Shown: one piece after another, positions 28,598 through 41,562 of the stretch
Numbering within the stretch: position 1 is the stretch's first letter
Layout: each line of letters begins with the position of its first letter
Source of the DNA: Limisalsivibrio acetivorans
Lineage (GTDB): Bacteria; Chrysiogenota; Deferribacteres; Deferribacterales; Geovibrionaceae
Direction: 5' to 3'
Assembly (NCBI RefSeq): GCF_000421105.1
Contig: NZ_ATWF01000001.1
Coordinates: forward strand, 902,930-966,929
Length of the DNA stretch: 64,000 nucleotides
The notes under the pieces: model-generated
Databases searched by the model: none
Told to the model about the DNA's origin: nothing
Seen by the model: the letters and a program-made list of their open reading frames with translations, nothing else
Made by a program: the position numbers and the translations under genes

Positions 28598-31585
28598 ATG
28601 CCCTTCTTCCGTAAACTTTCAACAGCCGTATTCTTCTCCTTTATGATATCGATCTTCATTACGCTCGCCGCTGCAGGTGCTTTCTGGATAAACGATATTT
28701 ACCGCTATTTCAGCTTTGAGGCGGATACATTGAAGTCAAATTATATAAGCTCGGTTAAGAACAGGCTCAGAAACAGCGTTCAGGAGATAAGCAACATAAT
28801 TGAGCAGAACCGTTCCACCGTTGAAGAGAAATCCGTTTCAGCCGTAAGCAAGGAGACGGATCTTGCATCCTTGATGGTAAAAAACCTGTACAGTGAGTTT
28901 GAGAGGAGCACAACCGCCCAAAAACTTCGGAGGATAGCGCTTAACAATATCAATTCCCTCATATCAGAAAAGAAACGTGAGCACTGGGTGATCATCTCCT
29001 CCGACGGAACGATCCTCCTTGATACAAATCAGCGGCAGAACGAAGGTAGAAGTGCCCTGTCCCAAAAGGACAGCAGCGGCTCTTTCTTATATCGTGAAAT
29101 GATCGAGAAAAGTAACAACGGCGGGGGGATCGTAAAGGGCTATTGGGGCAACAGAGGGATGGGAACCGGCATGAATCATGAAATAATCTACAGTATCACC
29201 CATCTGCCGGAGCTGGACTGGCATATTGCAGCAGGGATTTTTACTAAAAGCATCGAGGAGGAAATAAAGACAGATATGCTCCGGAATGCAGCATCTGTCC
29301 GCTTTGGTGAGGACGGCTACATTTTCATTGTGGATTATTCGGGGCATATCCTTGCCAGCAGGGGGGTGTACTTCCAGGAGCCTGTTCCTAGAGAAGGCAC
29401 CGGAGGGGAGGATACAGGCACTATCTATAGAAAAGCTATGAGTATAGTTCGGGAGAAGGGTTCAGGATTCTTCGAGTACCAGTTCCCCAGGATAGACACT
29501 AAGGATCCTGAGCCTAAGCTCTCATACGTATACGGGGATAACGAATGGGGCTGGATCATCGGTACAGGCGCCTACACCAACGATATTGATGAATACATAG
29601 CATCCAAGGAGGAGGAGCTCAGGCAGAAAGTGAAAATGAGCTTCATCAAGATGAGTGCGGTTTTCAGCATACTGTTTATCCTGCTTTACCTATTATCCCG
29701 AGTCATATACCGAAAAACCGAAGCGGGATTCTCCAAGTTCTCAGAGTTTTTCCGCAGAGGAAGGGAGAGCTACGAGCACATAAACCCCGATGAACTTCCC
29801 TATGATGAATTCCGAACCCTTGCAGAGCAGGCAAACAGGATGATAGATGAGAAGCTGAGCTTCGAAAACAACCTCAAGGATAAGCAGGCAGAGCTGGAGA
29901 ATGAGATACGGGGGCGCAGGAATATTCAGGAAAGGCTGAACACCATATTCTCAACCATGGAGGAAGGTGTTCTTCTACAGGACAGCCGCGGGAAGATACT
30001 TGATGTAAACAAAAGCTTTGAACAGATCTTGAGACTCAACAAAAAGGAAATCCTCGGCAAACTACCCCACGAACTCGATTTCAGGATCATCTTCGAGGAT
30101 AAAAGCTTCTGCCCCCCCGAAGAGTATCCTATGAACCTTGCAAGAAGAAAAAAGAAGAAGATCAGCAACCATATAACCGGCTTCGTCCTTGCCGGTTCGG
30201 AGATTGTATGGATACAGGCAACATCCGTTCCGATCATCGATGAATACGGAAGGCTCAGCAGGATTGTAACAACCTTTGCAGACATAACAGAGTCTAAGGA
30301 ACTACAGGATAAATTCCTTAAGGCACAAGAGAATATGGAGATGGCACAGGAGGTGTCCCATACAGGAAGCTGGGAGATGAACCTTGCCGACGGAAGGTTC
30401 TGGGTCTCCGATGTTTTCCGGAAGATATTCGATCTACCCGAGGGTGAGCTTAAGGTGGACGATCCGATGGAGAGAATCCATCCGGAGGACAGGGATATGG
30501 TGGAATTGAAGTTCGATGGCGCAGTCAAAACGGGAACCCCCTTCTCCGCCGACTACAGGGTTATAACAAGGAGCGGCTACGAGAGGCATGTCCATGGCCG
30601 CATAAAGGCGGATTACAAAGAGGGAAAAGCCAGACGTGTTTTCGGCACTGTCCAAGATGTTACAAACATACGAAAGGCCCAGGAACAGGTTAAGGAAGCC
30701 TATGAAAAGCTGAATGAGTATGTGCGTATCGTGGACGAGAATGTCATCACATCAGAAACAGATAAAGATGGAAACATCACCTCCGCCAGCGAGGCCTTCT
30801 GCAGAGTTTCCGGCTACTCCAAGGAGGAGCTTATTGGGCAGAACCATAGGATCCTGCGCCATGACGAAACAGAAGAAGGTGTATACAATGAGCTCTGGGA
30901 AACCATCACAAAGGGAAATACTTGGCGAGGCGAGCTTAGAAACAAGCGCAAGAACGGTGAGACATACTGGGTTTCCGCCTATGTAAGCCCGAGGTACGAC
31001 AAGGAGGGGAATGTCTTCGGATACATCTCCATACGTCAGGATATAACAGACCGGAAAATGGTTGAGCGTCTTTCGGTAACCGATGAACTCACAGGGGTTT
31101 ACAACAGACGATTCTTCAATAAAACCATACAGGAAGAACTGCGCCGGATGAAACGGGAACATGGCTTCTTATCCTTCGGAATGATAGATATAGACCACTT
31201 CAAGCAGTATAACGACACCTATGGTCACAAACAGGGTGACACCGCCCTTAGACGTGTGGCGGAGATACTGGACGATATGATGCAGAGGGGTGGCGACTTC
31301 GCCTTCCGTTTAGGTGGAGAGGAGTTCGGTATACTCTTCTCGGGTCAGGACGGAGATAAAACCAGAGCCTTTGCCGAAAGGGTAAAAAACGCCGTTGAGC
31401 AGGCGGGAATACCCCACGCTAAAAACAGCGCATCGGATTATTTAACGATCTCCTTGGGCGTTGTATGCGTAGACCTGTCCGGCAGCGATGTTAATGATAC
31501 AGATACAATATACCGCATTGCGGATGAAGCACTCTATAAGGCAAAGAGCGAGGGTAGAAACAGGGTAGTGCTTAACGTTATCTAG
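28598..31585 (+). CDS. Membrane Cache-PAS-GGDEF diguanylate cyclase
   Basis: A 995-residue protein: membrane helix (about 10-32), large periplasmic Cache region (about 35-345) containing two similar Cache segments (GWIIGTGAY and DWHIAAGIF type ends), second helix (about 347-365), three PAS domains (about 440-815), and a C-terminal GGDEF domain with GGEEF near 906-910. RGGD lies five residues before GGEEF, so the inhibitory I-site is kept. An extracellular ligand likely controls c-di-GMP synthesis. Its stop overlaps by 4 bases the stop of the convergent actin-like gene. Confidence 0.92.
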   Translation: MPFFRKLSTAVFFSFMISIFITLAAAGAFWINDIYRYFSFEADTLKSNYISSVKNRLRNSVQEISNIIEQNRSTVEEKSVSAVSKETDLASLMVKNLYSEFERSTTAQKLRRIALNNINSLISEKKREHWVIISSDGTILLDTNQRQNEGRSALSQKDSSGSFLYREMIEKSNNGGGIVKGYWGNRGMGTGMNHEIIYSITHLPELDWHIAAGIFTKSIEEEIKTDMLRNAASVRFGEDGYIFIVDYSGHILASRGVYFQEPVPREGTGGEDTGTIYRKAMSIVREKGSGFFEYQFPRIDTKDPEPKLSYVYGDNEWGWIIGTGAYTNDIDEYIASKEEELRQKVKMSFIKMSAVFSILFILLYLLSRVIYRKTEAGFSKFSEFFRRGRESYEHINPDELPYDEFRTLAEQANRMIDEKLSFENNLKDKQAELENEIRGRRNIQERLNTIFSTMEEGVLLQDSRGKILDVNKSFEQILRLNKKEILGKLPHELDFRIIFEDKSFCPPEEYPMNLARRKKKKISNHITGFVLAGSEIVWIQATSVPIIDEYGRLSRIVTTFADITESKELQDKFLKAQENMEMAQEVSHTGSWEMNLADGRFWVSDVFRKIFDLPEGELKVDDPMERIHPEDRDMVELKFDGAVKTGTPFSADYRVITRSGYERHVHGRIKADYKEGKARRVFGTVQDVTNIRKAQEQVKEAYEKLNEYVRIVDENVITSETDKDGNITSASEAFCRVSGYSKEELIGQNHRILRHDETEEGVYNELWETITKGNTWRGELRNKRKNGETYWVSAYVSPRYDKEGNVFGYISIRQDITDRKMVERLSVTDELTGVYNRRFFNKTIQEELRRMKREHGFLSFGMIDIDHFKQYNDTYGHKQGDTALRRVAEILDDMMQRGGDFAFRLGGEEFGILFSGQDGDKTRAFAERVKNAVEQAGIPHAKNSASDYLTISLGVVCVDLSGSDVNDTDTIYRIADEALYKAKSEGRNRVVLNVI

Positions 31586-34500
31586 CTGTTGCTCTCCCCG
31601 TTAAGAAGATCCAGTCCCCATGCGTGAAGTATTGCTGCCTTGATTATGATAAAGAATATCGGTTCATCGACTTCACCCTCCTTCCTTGTCATATAATCCT
31701 GAACGATGGGGTAGACATCATTGAAATCAGGGAACGGTTTCCACTTTTCCTCAAAACACTCTATAAATCTGTTATACTGTTTGTATTCTTTTACTGAATC
31801 ATACTGTTTCTCACAGCCGTCGACCTCAAAAAGCGTTTTCAGGTGTTCGATATTGTCACCTTCCAACTTTTTATCCGTGTCAGTAATAGAGCTGCTTGAA
31901 CACGGGGATGACTGGGTATCATCTGTCGATTCTTGGTTCAGCTCCTCTGGAGCGTTTCCGGTAGACTGGGTATCTCCTGTACCTTCTCTGCCGTTCTCAT
32001 TATCTTTGCCAGTGTCACTACTAGATTCATAAAATCCGTTTTCACCCACAATAGGGAATTTCGTTTCCGGTTCAATATTATGGATCTCACTATAGATGTC
32101 TTTCAGAAGACCTTTAGCAACCTCAGTTTTCGGGTTTGAAGAACGTTTCAGTTCGATCCGCAGATCATTAGAGCCATACCCGCAGTTGAATGATCTCTGA
32201 AGAACCTCCATCACTTTTTTGACAAAAGCGCCAGAATGACTCTTACCGAAAAGTAGGTCCAGATATCCCCACCCGTTTCCTGCCAAAAAGAGAGTTAGCC
32301 TGATATTTTTTTTATCTTCTCCATCATTCCAAATGCCCAGTTCAAAATCAGCACCCTTCAGTTGCTTACACCTCTTGAGAGACATACCCGCATAGAACAT
32401 AATTGCCGAGTAGGAGAAGATAGCCAGACTTTGGGCACTCCTGAGCTCTACAACTGCGCTCGGGCCAGCGTTAACAAGTCTGTCAATAAACCTTGTCCCA
32501 CCTGCTTTAAAAAGAAGGGAGAGCGTGGATTCGTTTATCGACTCCATAGCACGATGGATATTGTCGAACCTGCTTCTATACTTGCTACCGAACCACTCCA
32601 GCTTGTAAGAGAGGATCTTGGGGTTCTCCATAAAGTACTGGTTCATTATGTTTCCGGCAAACTTGACCACGGTTTCAATATAGAGACGTTGCTTTCTCCA
32701 TACAGCGAAATCGCTTGTTCCTCCGCCCACATCCACCGTAACCACGGGCACGGACGAACCGAGCATGAGTTCCTCCGCCCTTGCTATGGCAAGGCTTTCA
32801 GACACAAGCTTTACACCAACATTTGCAAAGATGTTATTTAAGAGCTCCTCCCTGTCGCCATCCTCTCCCATGGGAAGAGATGTATAAACATTAAGGTCCT
32901 GAACGCCTATCCTGCGTTCGAAAAGCTCTGCCCGGATAAGGGTTGATATATGCCTCAAATACATACCAAGATATCTTCGGTTGCTTCTGTGTTCCCACTT
33001 AACCCGTTCTTTATATCTTGATGCTATCCTTTCAAAATCCTCATCACTAAGCACTCCGTCCTCAACAAATGGTGGAATACTGTTGTTCATGGAAACAATA
33101 GCAACAGAATCAAGGACAGAATGGCCTTTCAATTCATGATCCGGCACCCTCAGCTTCATCAGAACAGGGACAGAAGACAGAGTTCCCTCACTATCATTCC
33201 TGTAGTAGGGCATGAAGTCCTTGCTGACAAAACAATCAATCGGAACATTAGTTTTGTTATAATCAAGATACCCTGCCTTGTCCTCTGGAACAGTAACCCA
33301 AAGAAGCCGGTTCTTGATCCTAAAACCTTCTATTGTGTCTTTCTCAGGATCGTTCTCCATAACAGCAATGTGAGATGTTCCCACATCTACGGATATGTTA
33401 GTCTTTTTCCCCGGCTGTGTTCCTTTGATATTATTAAGGATCTTAGGCATCAGAAGAACACCTATCTCTCTACCCTTATACTTCACAGAAACCCCTGTGG
33501 GGGGAGTGCTCATAGTCCAGGTAATGGCAAACCGGCCTTCGGTGTGCTGGGTATCGCCATCGACAATGGGGGTAATCTCGAAATCATCCTTTTTAACCAC
33601 CCATATGTAATACTCATGCCATTCATCGGAGTGGAAATCGGGCCATGAACAAACCACAGGGAGCTTCACATCCTGGGATGATGTAAATTCATGGCGGAAA
33701 GTAAGTTTATCAATGGTAAGTTCCATTGTGTTATTGTTGATATCCATACTGAACTCTTTTCGCCTTCGTCCTGTGAAGCAGTGTTTATAAATCCTGCTCA
33801 CACCATCTTTCATGATCGGCATAAGGGGCGCATGATCGTGATCTACAGAACGGTACAGAGTACTCGACAGATCCTTGAAGAGCTCGTTGGGGTTTATGTC
33901 CATAGCAACATGGTAGTTAAGATAGGATAATGAATGTTCATCGTGCAGAAGCTTCTTTTCAGGGAGAACCCTTTTGAGTTCATGCTGATCGTATGGCTCA
34001 CTCTTTTTCTTTTCAACCTGCCACTTGGAAAAGATCCAGGGACTCATATTACCGCAACTGGGATAAACCTCCTGCGTCCAGAAGTTGAGTATCATCTTCA
34101 CATTGTTAAGGGAAAGGGGCCACATATAATCACAGTCTAAGGGATCTTTGAGAATCCTGTCTTCATCGCTGAACCATGGGATCACAGCAGAGCTCATGCT
34201 GTCCGGATATTCAGCAGCAGGGAAGAGGCCTGTATAGTAATCACTCTGGATAAGCCCACCCATTATCTGATTATTCACATATAAGAAATGCAGTGAGGTA
34301 ATGGAGGTGCTGTAAAGATTTTTGGCAATGCTGTCCACAATCCTTTTCTTCTCCCACTCCTCTTCAGCCGAAGAAAAGGTGTACTCTTCAAACCTGATAT
34401 CAAGGTGGGGGTAGTAGTTCCTTAGGATTATAACAGCGTAGAGCCCCCTCAGCTCATCGGTGAGGATATTGCTTATGGTCTCATCGTGGGTTGTATCAGA

Positions 34501-34734
34501 GATTTTTGCAAGAATAACCCGGGACCATATATTCGGTATGAAAGATGAAAGCTCCTGCTGGTTAATCAAACCGATATCGATATTATCCACAAAATCACTT
34601 CTTATATCTGTGAAGTAGTTCCATCCGTGAGAGTAGCTCTGGTCAGACTGGATCTCAGTTCTGTAGCCGTCAGCACCATTGATCTCCTGATTTCTTATAC
34701 TTTCAATCTTTGGGAGGAATGAGTTTATAGACAT
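31582..34734 (-). CDS. Large actin/Hsp70-like ATPase of the vWA-tubulin module
   Basis: A 1050-residue protein. An N-terminal region of about 440 residues is not recognised. An actin/Hsp70 fold follows: phosphate-1 NISVDVGTSHIAV (about 445), phosphate-2 VVTVDVGGGTSDFAVW (about 664) and adenosine motif LFLAGNGWGYLD (about 815). A Ser/Asp/Glu-rich linker (about 900-950) leads to a short C-terminal domain. The large size and Hsp70-like core recall SrfB-type virulence-associated proteins, but I cannot confirm that family. ATG 34734 is chosen for AAGGAAGG 8 bases upstream and a 16-base gap to the tubulin-like gene; ATG 34785 would overlap that gene. Last gene of the operon. Confidence 0.75.
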   Translation of the reverse strand: MSINSFLPKIESIRNQEINGADGYRTEIQSDQSYSHGWNYFTDIRSDFVDNIDIGLINQQELSSFIPNIWSRVILAKISDTTHDETISNILTDELRGLYAVIILRNYYPHLDIRFEEYTFSSAEEEWEKKRIVDSIAKNLYSTSITSLHFLYVNNQIMGGLIQSDYYTGLFPAAEYPDSMSSAVIPWFSDEDRILKDPLDCDYMWPLSLNNVKMILNFWTQEVYPSCGNMSPWIFSKWQVEKKKSEPYDQHELKRVLPEKKLLHDEHSLSYLNYHVAMDINPNELFKDLSSTLYRSVDHDHAPLMPIMKDGVSRIYKHCFTGRRRKEFSMDINNNTMELTIDKLTFRHEFTSSQDVKLPVVCSWPDFHSDEWHEYYIWVVKKDDFEITPIVDGDTQHTEGRFAITWTMSTPPTGVSVKYKGREIGVLLMPKILNNIKGTQPGKKTNISVDVGTSHIAVMENDPEKDTIEGFRIKNRLLWVTVPEDKAGYLDYNKTNVPIDCFVSKDFMPYYRNDSEGTLSSVPVLMKLRVPDHELKGHSVLDSVAIVSMNNSIPPFVEDGVLSDEDFERIASRYKERVKWEHRSNRRYLGMYLRHISTLIRAELFERRIGVQDLNVYTSLPMGEDGDREELLNNIFANVGVKLVSESLAIARAEELMLGSSVPVVTVDVGGGTSDFAVWRKQRLYIETVVKFAGNIMNQYFMENPKILSYKLEWFGSKYRSRFDNIHRAMESINESTLSLLFKAGGTRFIDRLVNAGPSAVVELRSAQSLAIFSYSAIMFYAGMSLKRCKQLKGADFELGIWNDGEDKKNIRLTLFLAGNGWGYLDLLFGKSHSGAFVKKVMEVLQRSFNCGYGSNDLRIELKRSSNPKTEVAKGLLKDIYSEIHNIEPETKFPIVGENGFYESSSDTGKDNENGREGTGDTQSTGNAPEELNQESTDDTQSSPCSSSSITDTDKKLEGDNIEHLKTLFEVDGCEKQYDSVKEYKQYNRFIECFEEKWKPFPDFNDVYPIVQDYMTRKEGEVDEPIFFIIIKAAILHAWGLDLLNGESNS

Positions 34735-34750
34735 ATCCTGGACCTTCCTT

Positions 34751-36367
34751 TTAACTACTAAGCATTCTATTTGCAGCCATGGCACTTGAAAAATAGATCA
34801 TATCCATCAGCCTGCAATTTGGGCTATCAACGTATGTGTGAAGCTTGAGTTCATCTGGGATTCCCTCCTGTTTAGGAGCTCCATCTCTCTCTGCAAGCTT
34901 TTTGTTGGTTGACAAATAGTAAATTGCATCATTATAGATGTGGTTCATGGAGTTCTCTTCTCTGATCTTCTCAGAATGATGAAGAATATAGGATATAAAC
35001 TTTGCCGGTTCCTTTTCCAGTAGTGAGTCCAGATTCTCCTCCCTGGCAAGTTTTAGAAGTTCCTTAACCTTAGCGTAGTTCACAAACTTAACGTTCGTGT
35101 CCTCGCCTGCGTTCAGAATCGTGCCAAAATAGCTTTCATCAACCTGCTCGATATCTCCGGTCTGCATACTCAAAACCCACAGTATGAAATCACAATAGAA
35201 GTCCTTCAACGCATTCAGAAAGTCAGTGTCAATGCCGCTAAAGTATGTAATGTAAAGCTTTGTACGCCTAAAATCATCATTGCGCAGTAGCGGGTTCCAA
35301 TAAAGGAGAAAAGTGGTCGAGCATATCAAAGCTGTGAGGAACTTCCCCTTTACAGTGTTAACGGGTTTGAAGCCTCCGTTAGCACCGATGAGTTCAATAT
35401 CCTTCCAGGAAACCTGTTTGGTGTGTTCCCTTGTCAGATACATATAGTCGGTTTTCAGGTCGGTCTGCTTTGGTCTGTTAAGAAAATCATACAGAGCCAT
35501 TGCCCCCAAAAGCTCAACATGGTGTGCAGGGTTGTTCTGGGTTTGACCACCCACCCCAAGGGGGATCTCCTTGGTATACTGCTCCCCTATCATATATACG
35601 CGGCTCATGGGGTTTGAGCCCTGGAGTGAATAATAATACTCCATATGAAGCTTTGACTTGCTGAGAAAGTTATCCGGATCAACAAAATGCTGATGTGCGC
35701 CCCCCTTAGCACGTCTGAAGTCAAAATAGGGAAAGATCAGGGCACCGCCGACCTCAACCTTCTCGGGATTGAGCCCCATACTAGTTTTGATAAGCCTTGC
35801 AAGCGTTGGGAATATGGATGCGCCTGTACCACCAAAGACAGAACCGCACAGGAACACCTTTCCGCTTTCCCCACCTTTGCCCAGGTGGTTCTGGATCTCA
35901 TTCCACGGCTTGCGATCTATGTCAAACAGGCTCGCCATAACAGCGGAACCCACAGATGCACGCCCTTTAAAGCCTATATCCATGTTTTCGTTCCTGGCCT
36001 TCTCTGCAAAAAGAAGTTTCGGCAGCTTTTGGGGTCCGAAATACTCATTCATCGTGGAGCAATGCGTTCCATCATTTGAATCAAATATAGGAAGAGAGTG
36101 GTAGGTTTTTTCCGGTATGAGATAATCAATATTTTCGGGAAACATATACTTAAAGTTGCCTGTATTCTTGCTTAATGTATTCATGTATCCGGCAACCTTA
36201 TCTGCACGCTGGAAGTTTGCGTTTGCTTTATCCGGGTCTATATTAAGTACCTTGAGTTTGCTCCTTTCATTACCAGATCCGGTACAAAAACCGCCTATGG
36301 CACTATAGAATAAGAAGGCTTCCAGAAATTTAGAGCCTGTACCGCCTATAGATATTATCAGACTCAT
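34751..36367 (-). CDS. Tubulin/FtsZ-like GTPase
   Basis: A 538-residue protein with tubulin-superfamily features: an N-terminal glycine loop SIGGTGSKFLEAF (residues 6-18) and the phosphate-binding GSVFGGTGASIFPTL (about 172-186), equivalent to the GGGTGTG box of FtsZ. It is longer than FtsZ (about 380) and lacks a recognisable FtsZ C-terminal tail, so it is not the division FtsZ. It resembles the tubulin-like families found outside ftsZ loci. A strong GAGGAGGGGG precedes the ATG, 3 bases after the small membrane protein gene. Likely a GTPase that assembles at the membrane with its operon partners; this is inference. Confidence 0.8.
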   Translation of the reverse strand: MSLIISIGGTGSKFLEAFLFYSAIGGFCTGSGNERSKLKVLNIDPDKANANFQRADKVAGYMNTLSKNTGNFKYMFPENIDYLIPEKTYHSLPIFDSNDGTHCSTMNEYFGPQKLPKLLFAEKARNENMDIGFKGRASVGSAVMASLFDIDRKPWNEIQNHLGKGGESGKVFLCGSVFGGTGASIFPTLARLIKTSMGLNPEKVEVGGALIFPYFDFRRAKGGAHQHFVDPDNFLSKSKLHMEYYYSLQGSNPMSRVYMIGEQYTKEIPLGVGGQTQNNPAHHVELLGAMALYDFLNRPKQTDLKTDYMYLTREHTKQVSWKDIELIGANGGFKPVNTVKGKFLTALICSTTFLLYWNPLLRNDDFRRTKLYITYFSGIDTDFLNALKDFYCDFILWVLSMQTGDIEQVDESYFGTILNAGEDTNVKFVNYAKVKELLKLAREENLDSLLEKEPAKFISYILHHSEKIREENSMNHIYNDAIYYLSTNKKLAERDGAPKQEGIPDELKLHTYVDSPNCRLMDMIYFSSAMAANRMLSS

Positions 36368-36370
36368 ACT

Positions 36371-36814
36371 CTACCCCCTCCTCATAAGCAGTTGAACTGG
36401 CGTGGTCATACCAGAATTCCTGGTCAGATATGCTAAAGATAGCCATAGCAATGTTAAGAGTAATGAAATAATCGCGGCGGGAACTGCTTTTCCATAGATG
36501 AAATAAGTGAGTATTCCTAAGTTTACAACCGAGGATAACCCAAATATTATTGTCGATCGTTTAACCAATGCCTTGTTCACCTGATCCTGAACACGAAGCA
36601 AATCACGCCCTTTTAAGATAGTTAGGGTATTGTAATCAGGCCTTCGGATTGATAAATAACAGATAATTGCATTAAAAAGAAAAAGTAGAATAGTTCCGAT
36701 CGCTAGGATATTCTGTTGAGGAATATCTACATCAACTCTAGTTATGTAGTCTGTAAATATCTTAATAAACAGAGCAAAACCAATATCCGCAAGTTTAGCT
36801 ATAATAATTTCCAT
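36371..36814 (-). CDS. Small polytopic membrane protein of the vWA-tubulin module
   Basis: A 147-residue protein with three clear membrane helices (about 35-57, 86-106, 108-128) and perhaps an amphipathic N-terminal helix. No family recognised. It lies 2 bases after the vWA gene and 3 bases before the tubulin-like gene, so it is part of the unit and may anchor the cytoplasmic filament-type proteins to the inner membrane. Confidence 0.75.
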   Translation of the reverse strand: MEIIIAKLADIGFALFIKIFTDYITRVDVDIPQQNILAIGTILLFLFNAIICYLSIRRPDYNTLTILKGRDLLRVQDQVNKALVKRSTIIFGLSSVVNLGILTYFIYGKAVPAAIISLLLTLLWLSLAYLTRNSGMTTPVQLLMRRG

Positions 36815-36816
36815 AA

Positions 36817-38085
36817 TTAATCCCTAACCTCTATGAAATAGGGCGACCATTCACCAATTATTCTATTGATTGATGAAACAAGGCTTTCAAACCTGTAGAC
36901 TTTGTTGTAGTCGTCGCTATCCGTGTCATTATTCGTTGAGACGTCCCTCACCCAGTTGGAGATTATTCTCGGCTGTGCGCTTTCCAACTTCATGTTCAGC
37001 TTGTAATAAACAACGCTGTAGTTACTTCCAGCCTCTCTGGGGATGGATACCTCATAGGTACCATTTCTAGCGGAGTTATCCGGCATGCTGTTGTGCCTCT
37101 CAGAGCGGGAAAACGATGCATCCATGCTTTTCCACACCTGTATTCTAGATATATAGTGCGTGGGGGGGATTTCATAGCTTAACTGGAGTTCAAGTGGCTT
37201 GTTCTCGAGGTTTGCTCTGTTTTGGATCGTAGCACATTTGGAATTCTCTGATATTCTGCGATATTGAGACTGGTTCTTAACCTGTATATCCTTTACTTCA
37301 ATATTTACATTTCTGAAGAAGTCGTAGCTATTCTGAAATAAAGTGTTATTAAAGGGTGCGTTTGTGCTGGTCATGGTATTCAGAGCATCTATGTTTTTTG
37401 CACCAAGAAGGACAAATATTGGCCTGTTCGTGCTCACCTGCCCTATTGGGCCCCCACCGTTCATTTCAGAATAGGCGGTGCCTTCGAAATCGGTCTCCAT
37501 CATGTAAAGTCTGAATTTATAACCCTTACTGGAGATCAGAGCGATGGCATCCAGCATATTCTGCCTTAACCCGTTACTGTTCTCCCTTTCACTGAGCACA
37601 AAGTCTCCGACCACAGCGAAAGAACGGGGCATTTTCTCCGCAATATCCTGAAAGGGGGCGTTGTAATAACTGTAGCTTCTGTAATTGTCAGCATTTAAAA
37701 CATCTTCCACGGCTGATCTGCTCAAATTGTCATTAAACATGTGTATTTCGATATTGTTAGATACTGCAAAGGTAGATATGTGGTTACTAAGATAGTTTCT
37801 ATACCTGGAGCTGGTATTGAGGTAGCCCTTCATAGAAGCTGAGGAGTCAAAATAAAGTACGACACTGTTTTCCTGACTGTACGTATTAATATACTTATCG
37901 CATGCGTCAGAAGAGGTGCTGTCACTATTATTATCGTTAACTAATAATAAGGCCAGCAGTATAATAACCAGCAGGCCTACGGTAATGAACACAATAAGGC
38001 GGCTATTTGAAGGAGCACCCTGAAACTGAGCTCCATACAGTTCATCATCCCCGCTTCTACGAAAAAAGTTAAAATCGAACTTCAT
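36817..38085 (-). CDS. Membrane-anchored vWA-like protein
   Basis: A 422-residue protein: short cytoplasmic start, one membrane helix (residues 30-49), then an outward-facing von Willebrand A-like domain opening with VVLYFDSSASMKGYL. D80, S82 and S84 form the DxSxS part of a metal-ion-dependent adhesion site. The rest (about 250-422) resembles no family I know. First gene of the operon, so it may be the external sensor or adhesive part, with the tubulin-like and actin-like proteins inside. Confidence 0.75.
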   Translation of the reverse strand: MKFDFNFFRRSGDDELYGAQFQGAPSNSRLIVFITVGLLVIILLALLLVNDNNSDSTSSDACDKYINTYSQENSVVLYFDSSASMKGYLNTSSRYRNYLSNHISTFAVSNNIEIHMFNDNLSRSAVEDVLNADNYRSYSYYNAPFQDIAEKMPRSFAVVGDFVLSERENSNGLRQNMLDAIALISSKGYKFRLYMMETDFEGTAYSEMNGGGPIGQVSTNRPIFVLLGAKNIDALNTMTSTNAPFNNTLFQNSYDFFRNVNIEVKDIQVKNQSQYRRISENSKCATIQNRANLENKPLELQLSYEIPPTHYISRIQVWKSMDASFSRSERHNSMPDNSARNGTYEVSIPREAGSNYSVVYYKLNMKLESAQPRIISNWVRDVSTNNDTDSDDYNKVYRFESLVSSINRIIGEWSPYFIEVRD

Positions 38086-38467
38086 TGTCTTTCCCTACCT
38101 TTAAGCTCTAAAAAGGAAACTATATACACATAACGTATATATAGATCACATAACATGTCGTGTCAAACAAATTTCTTTTGATCACAGCCGTTTGAGATCA
38201 CAATCGAACATAACGCTTTAGTTTGCATTCATTAAAAACTTATGGAAAACAGCATCTAATTTACAGAATCACTTACGCTACATTAGATATTTATATGTAT
38301 AATACCCTCATATACTCATAGATACTGATTATCTTCTACAATAAGGGTTAACCCCGGCTTCACCATAACTGCATACTTATTTAAAGATTGACTCACACTT
38401 TCTTGACATTTAAACTCAATAATCAATGCAAATATAATATATCACACTCAAACTTCCGGGGGCTAAT
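38086..38467. other. AT-rich divergent intergenic region
   Basis: No gene seen. It separates the vWA operon (minus) from the chemotaxis receptor (plus). The left 80 bases hold a near-consensus minus-strand promoter with operator-like repeats. The right part has TATAAT at about 38435-38440 that may serve the receptor, but no -35 box at normal spacing. Confidence 0.5.
38127..38166 (-). promoter_or_regulatory. Near-consensus promoter with twin operator repeats (vWA operon)
   Basis: On the minus strand TTGACA (38166-38161), exactly 17 bases, then TATATA (38143-38138); start expected near 38131. GTTATGTG occurs twice, at 38154-38147 in the spacer and 38134-38127 over the start site, 20 bases apart (two helical turns). 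This is a strong promoter arranged for repression by a dimeric or cooperative regulator. No regulator gene is adjacent. Confidence 0.7.
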
Positions 38468-40444
38468 ATGGGAATGCGATTCACAATCAAGATGAGGGTT
38501 ATAATCTCACTCCTAGGTGCTATCCTCATTCCTGTTTTGATACTTTCATTATTATCTATCAATAAAATCCGCAAAGATACCTACGAAAATTTCACTAACT
38601 CCACAAAGCGGGAGATACGTCAGATAGAAAACTCCATTGAGATCCATTTCAAAGGGGTGCGTGAAAACGTTGAATACATGGCGAAGCACCCCATAGTCAA
38701 ACAGGCGGATGATTCCATAACTACCTACTACGACACTAATACAGAGAACAAGATGACCCCCTCCTCCAACGGAGGAATAGAAGAAGATATCTACGATGTT
38801 TATGAACGCTTCGCCTCCACACATAAGGATCTCGCCTACGTATACATGGCCACAAAACACGGCGGCTACATCCAATGGCCCGAAGGAACAACGGGAGCGA
38901 AGTACGACCCCAGAAAGAGACCCTTCTACAAAGCGGCTGTAAATGCCGGCGGAACCACTCGCACACCCGCCTACTACTTCGCAGCCGATGATGTCGTTAT
39001 CGTGAGCACTGTCACAAACATTAAGGACAGCAGAGGAAACTTCATCGGAGTACAGGGCATGGATGTAAGCCTTAAAGGACTTACAGATATGATAAAAAGC
39101 ATAACTATCGGTAAAACCGGATACCTTATGCTCGTTCAGGATGATGGTACAGTCCTTGCCGACCCTTCCGAAGCCTCTAACAACTTCAAGAAACTCACAG
39201 AACTTGAGGGTGAAGGATACAACACCCTGAGCAGCTCCTCAAACGGGCATTACAGAGTCAGCCTGGGTGACAAAGAGTATGAAGCAAACATATACACATC
39301 ACCCGAACTGGGCTGGAAGTTCATCGGCCTCATAGAGTCCTCTGAGATAAAGTCGGTCATCAACAGGGTCACCTTAACATACGCCTTAACAGGGGTTCTC
39401 CTTGTGGGAATCTTCGCCCTCATAGCCCTTTACGTCTCCATGCGCATAACAAAGCCGATCATACGTCTCAAAAATATGATAGAGGACATCGCAGAGGGTG
39501 GAGGAGATCTGAGAAACCGTCTTCAGGTAAAGCGCAACGATGAGATATCAGACCTTGCCTTCTCCTTCAACAAATTCGTAGACAAGATAAACCACCTCGT
39601 CATTGAGGTTAAGCATAACGCACTGAACGTCAGCTCATCATCCCAGGAGATCTCCGCTGCAACAGAGGAACTCTCCACCGTCTTCAACAACACTAATGCG
39701 CAAACCCAGTCCATAGCCGCCGCCCTTGAGGAGCTTTCCAGAACATCGGAGAGTATCAGCTCATCGGTGGACGAAACGAGGAACCTAGCCAAAAACGCCT
39801 CTGAGAACACACGGGAAGGTGGGGAGATAATCCGCAAAACCATAGATGGTATGAACTCCATACAGGATGAGGTGGGCTCCCTCTCCCGCATAATCAGCGA
39901 GCTGAACAGCTCCACGGATAAGATAGGCGATATTCTTGATGTTATTAACGATATCGCAGACCAGACAAACCTCCTCGCACTCAACGCCGCCATCGAAGCC
40001 GCTAGAGCGGGTGAAGCCGGACGAGGCTTTGCCGTAGTCGCCGATGAGGTGAGAAAGCTGGCGGAGAAAACATCCACTGCAACACAGGAGATTACAGGGA
40101 TCATAAGCACACTGCAGAATGAAACAACCCATGCCACAAGCTCCATGGAAAAGGTTAGCAAAGAAGTGGGCAGAGGAGCGGACCTGGGTGAGGATTCCCT
40201 CGTTGTTCTGGATAAGATTGTGGATGCAGGAAACAGAATACTTGAGGCGGCAACGAACGTCTCGGCTGCCGTAAACCAGGAAGTTACGGCCATCGGAGAT
40301 ATAAACAGTAATATCCGGGAAATGGCTGACTCATCAGATGAATCAAACTTATCCATACAGGAGGTTGCCAAATCCTCTGACAGCCTCGCAAAGGATGCCG
40401 AGGAGCTCACAAGCCTTGTCTCCAGATTCAAAACGGATGATTAG
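38468..40444 (+). CDS. Methyl-accepting chemotaxis protein with dCache sensor
   Basis: A 658-residue receptor: helix (about 10-32), periplasmic dCache domain (about 35-298), second helix (about 300-322), HAMP (about 322-376) and a cytoplasmic signalling domain. The signalling hairpin tip reads [21 protein letters not shown], followed by [14 protein letters not shown]. The ligand is unknown; dCache domains bind small molecules such as amino or organic acids. No CheW-type genes are adjacent, so it is an orphan receptor. GGGGG lies 5 bases before the ATG. Confidence 0.94.
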
Positions 40445-40531
40445 TTAACAACCAGGATACTACCTCTATCACACACTGATAAGGAATCTCATTATATTTG
40501 ACTACCCATTAATATAGTATTTGTTCACCAG

Positions 40532-40563
40532 AGATTGACCCCGGTTAAAAAAAGGGGTAATCT
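40532..40563 (+). promoter_or_regulatory. Hairpin in the cas6-like gene leader
   Basis: AGATT-G-ACCCC (40532-40542) pairs with GGGGTAATCT (40554-40563), ten base pairs with one bulged G, around an A-rich 11-base loop. It lies 20 bases before the ATG and has no T run, so it is not a terminator. Its size resembles a CRISPR-repeat hairpin, a possible self-target of the encoded Cas6-like protein. Confidence 0.55.
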
Positions 40564-40583
40564 TGTATTGTTGAGGTGAACAG

Positions 40584-41423
40584 ATGCTTATCCGCGTGGA
40601 TTTAGGAATTCGGGCTCTTCCGGTTATCTACCGCCACCGTTTCGGAGCCATGATTAAGGCCGCCCTGCGTGCCAGCTCATTAAGTACATACAACAGATAT
40701 TTCCCTGAAGGCGATTCCCCCCAGTACCGTTATTACACATTCAATGTCGCCTTCCCCAAAAACAGACGCACCGAATGCGACATAAAGATAGACGACCAGT
40801 TCATCATCCACGAATGTGTCTATATGGTGGATGAAAAGCCTGTGAGTCTTTACATATCAAGCCCCGACCATGAATTTCTTATACACCTCTACGACGGCTT
40901 CCGCACCATGGAACGCTTCCCATTCTCCACCGATACCGGCATGACGGTGAACGGAGAAAGGCTTGAGCTCATAGTACGTGACATAAGCATTGTCCGCCGT
41001 GACCTTCAGATTCAGGACGATGTTATCACTATCCAGACCCACAGCCCCGTTGTTCTGGAATCTGAAACTGGCTCAAAACCGCTCATACCCGATATCGAAG
41101 ATATAGACTTCTTCAATAAGGTATCCCTCAGCGAATACTCCGAAGCCTTCGGGAACAGCTGTGCCCACAGACTTGCCTCATATAGCGGCGTTGAACCCTC
41201 CCGCCCCTTTGAACTTGCCCCCCTGAAAGTGAAGAAGTCCGTTGTTAAGCATACCCTCGGCTCCTTCCGGAAGGAGACGGGCAAACCCCTCATGATGATA
41301 ACGGGGCTGAGCGGAACATTCACCATCAAGGGGGATCCGAAGGACCTCTCTGTTCTTATGGATATGGGCGTGGGTGTGAGAACCGTGCAGGGCTTCGGCA
41401 TGGTGGAGCCGGCAGCAGGCTGA
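40584..41423 (+). CDS. Solitary Cas6-like CRISPR RNA endoribonuclease
   Basis: A 279-residue protein. Its C terminus ends GVGVRTVQGFGMV, the glycine-rich loop that closes the second ferredoxin-like fold of Cas6 proteins. The N-terminal part (RHRFGAMIKAALR, then RYYTFNVAFP) fits the first. Cas6 cuts pre-crRNA inside repeat hairpins. No other cas gene and no repeat array are in the window, so it either works in trans with an array elsewhere or has another RNA target. GAGGTGA gives a good ribosome site. An unrelated RAMP fold cannot be excluded. Confidence 0.7.
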   Translation: MLIRVDLGIRALPVIYRHRFGAMIKAALRASSLSTYNRYFPEGDSPQYRYYTFNVAFPKNRRTECDIKIDDQFIIHECVYMVDEKPVSLYISSPDHEFLIHLYDGFRTMERFPFSTDTGMTVNGERLELIVRDISIVRRDLQIQDDVITIQTHSPVVLESETGSKPLIPDIEDIDFFNKVSLSEYSEAFGNSCAHRLASYSGVEPSRPFELAPLKVKKSVVKHTLGSFRKETGKPLMMITGLSGTFTIKGDPKDLSVLMDMGVGVRTVQGFGMVEPAAG

Positions 41424-41481
41424 TTTCACAGAAATAATCCCGTCAAATACAAGCTAACCTCAGTCACCACCGCTGTTTTCT

Positions 41482-41525
41482 GTTGTCTTAACCGTTTCTT
41501 GACACTATCCTAACAATAAGACAAC
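41482..41525. promoter_or_regulatory. Perfect 9-bp inverted repeat around a -35-like box
   Basis: GTTGTCTTA (41482-41490) and TAAGACAAC (41517-41525) flank TTGACA (41499-41504), just upstream of the MgtC/DUF4010 gene. The layout suggests an operator. I cannot fit a -10 at standard spacing. Confidence 0.45.
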
Positions 41526-41562
41526 ACTTCGCAGGGGGTGAGCCATCATAGATTTCTTTCCT

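Follow-up and report, generated by a model that had tools for sequence, protein, structure and literature searches.

A lone cas6 gene with a leader predicted to fold in Limisalsivibrio acetivorans, and its orphan relatives

Type I-B Cas6b proteins are encoded in cas6-cas8b-cas7-cas5-cas3-cas4-cas1 operons that are accompanied by arrays. In Sulfolobus, SsoCas6 also serves CRISPR arrays, and it cuts RNA without the canonical catalytic histidine (PMC3652601). The Pyrococcus homologue PhCas6nc is inactive but retains binding to unstructured repeat RNA (PMC3727216), and many type III systems use a Cas6 borrowed in trans (PMC12669027). A literature search revealed no lone or orphan Cas6 family.

Here, we describe a cas6 gene located in a 64-kb stretch of the L. 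acetivorans genome, hereafter called the window. The nearest clade to its product consists of I-B Cas6b proteins (from Aquificota, Nitrospirota, and the relative G012), which share its fold and profile families at 33-39% identity. The window protein differs from them at loop residue G268, Y40, and P50, and its gene has neither the operon nor the arrays of the I-B genes. The coding features are as follows:

40584..41423, + strand: lone cas6, 279 aa, ATG at 40584 and stop at 41423 (family profiles, AlphaFold model, fold match)
40656..40730, + strand: N-terminal active-site region, residues 25-49, with K25 kept, Tyr40 replaced by F, and Lys49 by R (alignment)
41379..41402, + strand: Gly-rich loop RTVQGFGM, residues 266-273, with G268 of the I-B relatives replaced by V (alignment)

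Fold and conserved residues of the window Cas6

The window ORF is a Cas6. The initial annotation had called it a Cas6-like protein with a GFGMV loop, and both statements hold: the sequence RTVQGFGMVE lies near the C terminus, and the protein exceeds the curated cut-offs of TIGR01877 (82.1 bits; cut-off, 58.65) and PF01881 (3e-18, 67.3 bits; cut-off, 23). Its best PADLOC match is Cas6b (1e-40). In addition, an AlphaFold model obtained from an alignment of 32 sequences (mean pLDDT 90.9, pTM 0.88) and its comparison with solved structures revealed the two ferredoxin-like RAMP domains of the Cas6 fold. The best solved structures (3qjj, 3ufc, 3i4h, 3pkm, and 5yi6) are all Cas6 proteins, with Z scores of 23-26 over 221-228 residues (25.9 for 3qjj and 24.8 for 3i4h). 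The predicted fold is Cas6-like, so the concern that the structure might depart from Cas6 does not apply. The top matches (Z ~26) are two archaeal proteins of Pyrococcus, PF0393 (PDB 3ufc) and 3qjj, which we take to be the protein named PhCas6nc (PH0350); they share ~22% identity with the window protein, and its likeness to a non-catalytic Cas6nc is one of modeled structure. The fold likeness to SsoCas6 is lower (Z ~13).

The window Cas6 retains the Cas6 fold and the larger part of the conserved core, with 40 of the 59 I-B-conserved columns kept (36-40 across the lone Cas6 proteins described below). In the alignment, both the Gly-rich loop and the N-terminal stretch that surrounds the cleavage centre are altered. 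Residue G268, invariant in all 29 I-B relatives, is V in the window protein, and the positions aligned with the PfuCas6 catalytic residues Y31, H46, and K52 are occupied by K25, F40, and R49, with no histidine among them; the Y40 column is the one that aligns with PfuCas6 H46. All five lone Cas6 proteins are changed at the same I-B-conserved columns, including Y40, P50, K151, and G268, and the second copy of this genome carries a His adjoining the aligned catalytic position. SsoCas6, which likewise has no canonical histidine, is active, and PhCas6nc binds without cutting, so cutting of RNA by the window Cas6 is not readable from these residues.

Orphan relatives and the window site

A maximum-likelihood tree placed the five lone Cas6 proteins in one clade (support 100/99) beside the I-B group. 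More distant relatives in Aquificota, Nitrospirota, and Thermodesulfobacteriota are mostly found in I-B operons when the contig extends far enough to judge, and where an array is within reach, their repeats are of one type, of the form GTTTYRTCTGAACYRNGTGGGATWTAAAG. These relatives were recovered by an alignment-based search, and a scan with the window protein alone found none. Carriage by a mobile element was considered and rejected, as no close relative was found in plasmids, phages, or viral contigs.

The second lone Cas6 of L. acetivorans is encoded on another contig (C2:78939-79766; L003:18940-19776) and is 37% identical to the window copy. There is no array at a distance of up to 18 kb from it, nor a recognisable cas gene up to ~10 kb away. 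Among the 118 genomes searched, all three species examined of one sister genus carry a lone Cas6, two other genera of the same family were without one, and no close orthologue of the window copy was found. The sister-genus genes lie in the order htpG, thioesterase-like gene, RNase D-like gene, cas6, GGDEF/EAL gene, and solute-binding gene, which is also the order at the C2 copy except that a few genes are inserted, and they are orthologues of that copy.

Between the sister-genus species, the lone Cas6 proteins share 91-95% amino-acid identity. Their omega values of 0.026-0.035, against 0.028-0.055 for htpG, are rough because dS is above 1 and near saturation, and a nearby carbonic anhydrase-like gene is under similar constraint. 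Selection was measured solely on these orthologues of the C2 copy. Since some members of this orphan clade are under strong selection, the window cas6 is more interesting than a stray gene would be.

The window copy lies in a segment that the sister genus does not have at the corresponding site:

31586..41562, strand not assigned: low-GC four-gene module, chemoreceptor gene, and cas6, between two genes that are adjacent in the sister genus

There, the order of the genes on either side (hcp, crp, exchanger, sensor, DUF4010, CxxCxxCC, and NDH-2) is the same, but 31586-41562 is absent. The cas6 gene has a core-genome composition (GC3 0.62; neighbouring gene, 0.61) and is therefore not a recent import. 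We consider it improbable that the window cas6 is a functionless, drifting remnant of a lost I-B system. The sister-genus site without cas6 and the many changed I-B-conserved residues would fit such a remnant, but the intact frame, the core-gene composition, the retention of 40 of 59 conserved columns, and the strong purifying selection on the orthologues of the C2 copy argue against it.

The four-gene module itself (31582-38085, - strand) is low in GC and is likewise missing from the sister-genus site. It encodes a 1067-aa protein bearing an actin/Hsp70-like motif (VDVGGGTSDFA), a protein with a weak tubulin-like match (PF13809, 4e-5, under the cut-off), a small protein of the membrane, and a membrane-anchored one of 422 aa that matches no Pfam family; the last three genes have no PADLOC match.

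CRISPR content of the genome

The initial annotation had described the gene as lone within the window and had suggested that it might serve a distant array. The former description is strengthened by the second lone copy and the sister-genus orthologues: no CRISPR array occurs within the 64-kb window, it holds no cas neighbours, and whole-genome searches for Cas1, RAMP, Cas3, and Cas7 gave no match inside its coordinates. Arrays in this genome of 2.97 Mb (three contigs) were sought via cas genes and repeat patterns only. The single CRISPR system detected is of type I-F (C1:1364501-1372851) and comprises Cas1, Cas2-3, Csy1-3, its own Csy4 (Cas6f), and long arrays with the repeat GTTCACTGCCGCACAGGTAGCTTAGAAA; these gene names are presumptive, based on length, order, and the usual make-up of I-F loci. 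A transposase-like gene (L006:10914-11879) and ~170-nt repeated elements near C1:1360385 and C1:1375097 flank the locus.

The genome contains no detectable I-B or type III partners for the window Cas6. Profile searches found no I-B Cas3, no I-B Cas7, and no RAMPs or other type III partner, and all four profiles employed (I-B Cas7 built from this Cas6 lineage, Cas3 core, RAMP, and the lineage repeat) match in the relative G012. No lineage repeat was found within 3 mismatches, a search that a diverged repeat would escape.

Service to a distant array is thus unlikely, since the only arrays detected through cas genes and repeat patterns are of type I-F and have their own Cas6f. We assign a low probability to the broader proposal that the window Cas6 processes an array elsewhere in the genome or aids the I-F system in trans. 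In its favour, I-F genes and arrays are present in each of the four genomes that encode a lone Cas6, and the borrowing of Cas6 in trans is known from many type III systems (PMC12669027). However, the I-F loci encode their own Cas6f, species of the sister genus g3 encode an I-F-like Cas1 but no lone Cas6, and the present genome is without type III RAMPs, I-B Cas7, or a lineage repeat within 3 mismatches.

In favour of a Cas6 detached from CRISPR, the sister-genus genome G007, which has a lone Cas6, is without a full-length Cas1. Its contig C2 holds a minimal I-F-like variant (L123:9076-15320) with a truncated Cas1 frame of 179 aa, a Cas3-like frame of 865 aa, and two frames resembling Csy4, next to an I-F array.

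The leader of the window gene and a possible role for the family

Upstream of the window cas6, the sequence and its computed fold define the following elements:

40521..40529, + strand: outer stem 5' arm TTGTTCACC, pairing with 40575-40583
40532..40542, + strand: inner hairpin 5' arm AGATTGACCCC, AGATT(G)ACCCC with the G bulged (sequence, fold)
40554..40563, + strand: inner hairpin 3' arm GGGGTAATCT, 20 nt before the ATG (sequence, fold)
40573..40578, + strand: Shine-Dalgarno GAGGTG, last four bases paired in the outer stem (sequence, pair probabilities)
40575..40583, + strand: outer stem 3' arm GGTGAACAG, overlapping the Shine-Dalgarno and abutting the ATG (fold, pair probabilities)

The hairpin that had been reported (10 bp, one bulge, 20 bases before the ATG) is accurate in every detail, with a single bulged G and a distance of exactly 20 nt. 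An outer 9-bp stem, overlooked at that stage, encloses it and pairs four of the six Shine-Dalgarno bases with a pair probability of ~1.0. The fold energy of positions -64 to +16 was better than 99.6% of 3000 dinucleotide shuffles (p 0.004), and that of positions -100 to +16 was better than 99.9% (p 0.0007). Across the gene starts in 144 kb of L. acetivorans sequence (93 in all), the window cas6 leader had the lowest fold z, and one further start was nearly equal. A fold this good would arise by chance at about one gene start in a few hundred, which amounts to several in a genome of a few thousand genes, so the fold is notable but is no proof of function. As it occurs in one genome only, it has no covariation support. 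The leader has no Rfam match. We also considered it as a repeated element and rejected this, with chance-level matches only elsewhere in the genome.

There is a sizeable minority chance that the hairpin is incidental or is transcriptional in nature, i.e., an attenuator or terminator of the upstream chemoreceptor gene that is unrelated to Cas6. The chance frequency of such folds and the second start with nearly the same z favour this view, whereas the precise pairing of the outer stem with the Shine-Dalgarno speaks against it, as does the lack of a U-run after the inner hairpin, unlike an intrinsic terminator (the terminator scan does not cover loops this long).

The hairpin had also been described as CRISPR-repeat-like, and this likeness did not hold up. 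Local alignment placed the leader at chance against the lineage I-B repeats (p 0.29-0.98) and the genome's own I-F repeat (p at least 0.32), the latter being the comparison with genome arrays that had been suggested, and a repeat profile model and a gapped weight-matrix scan also gave nothing above chance. Over 144 kb of L. acetivorans sequence and 206 kb from the sister genus, the repeat profile had no match, and the one lineage I-B repeat that was folded is nearly unstructured (-2.6 kcal/mol). A TCTGAAC..GGGG..TTAA stretch before the C2 cas6 seemed repeat-like at first and was rejected, as nothing rose above chance in the same scans. The leader hairpin looks like a possible translation lock, not a CRISPR repeat.

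Given a stable two-stem leader that adjoins the window cas6 and covers its Shine-Dalgarno, one may ask whether Cas6 regulates itself, either by binding its own leader hairpin and so holding the Shine-Dalgarno shut or by cutting it and so removing the Shine-Dalgarno, as first proposed in the initial annotation. The sister genus offers a parallel: the ~230 nt upstream of its lone cas6 genes (L019, L021, and L023) are AT-rich, non-coding, and 84-87% identical between species, although synonymous sites are near saturation between them. Of 11 upstream regions used for comparison, some overlapping with coding sequence, nearly all are less identical, and because the block is so unusually conserved, expression of the lone Cas6 family seems to be regulated. 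Nonetheless, we regard autoregulation as unlikely. The leader shows no likeness to the I-F repeat or to those of the lineage, the lineage repeat has little structure of its own, fold shuffles gave unremarkable stability for the leaders of the remaining four lone cas6 genes (p 0.11-0.72), and the conserved sister-genus block was not found in the L. acetivorans genome. A consensus structure of that block showed no convincing covariation among its three sequences. Self-cleavage of its own message by the window Cas6 is possible but unsupported.

Collectively, the parts of the earlier interpretation that stand are a Cas6-like protein and its lone position; the CRISPR-repeat-like hairpin does not stand, and service to a distant array is unlikely. 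The reading that we moderately favour is that the window Cas6 descends from type I-B, has become detached from CRISPR, and belongs to an orphan family kept for another RNA job, with its own leader shutting translation. Under this reading, a Cas6 of I-B ancestry would have left CRISPR and formed an orphan family together with the C2 copy and the sister-genus orthologues. Another RNA job is probable because some relatives keep the orphan Cas6 as strictly as essential genes. Since the Cas6 fold is kept while the loop and cleavage-centre region are altered, the protein would most likely bind, and perhaps slowly cleave, a non-CRISPR cellular RNA. By computation, the window cas6 mRNA can fold such that the Shine-Dalgarno pairs with the upstream TTGTTCACC and the inner hairpin brings the arms together; the paired Shine-Dalgarno may hold translation low until it is opened, for example by a protein or a change in temperature.

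Tentatively, and with more doubt than confidence, we propose that a Cas6 family may have been domesticated in Deferribacterales for CRISPR-independent RNA binding or processing, with housekeeping-like conservation and with leaders, either structured or strongly conserved, that keep expression in check. Cas proteins with roles outside CRISPR are few. If our interpretation is true, a Cas6 under strong selection in several species without a matching effector or array would provide a ready system for asking what cellular uses Cas6 has, as well as a route to how an array-cutting enzyme turns into a general RNA-binding protein.
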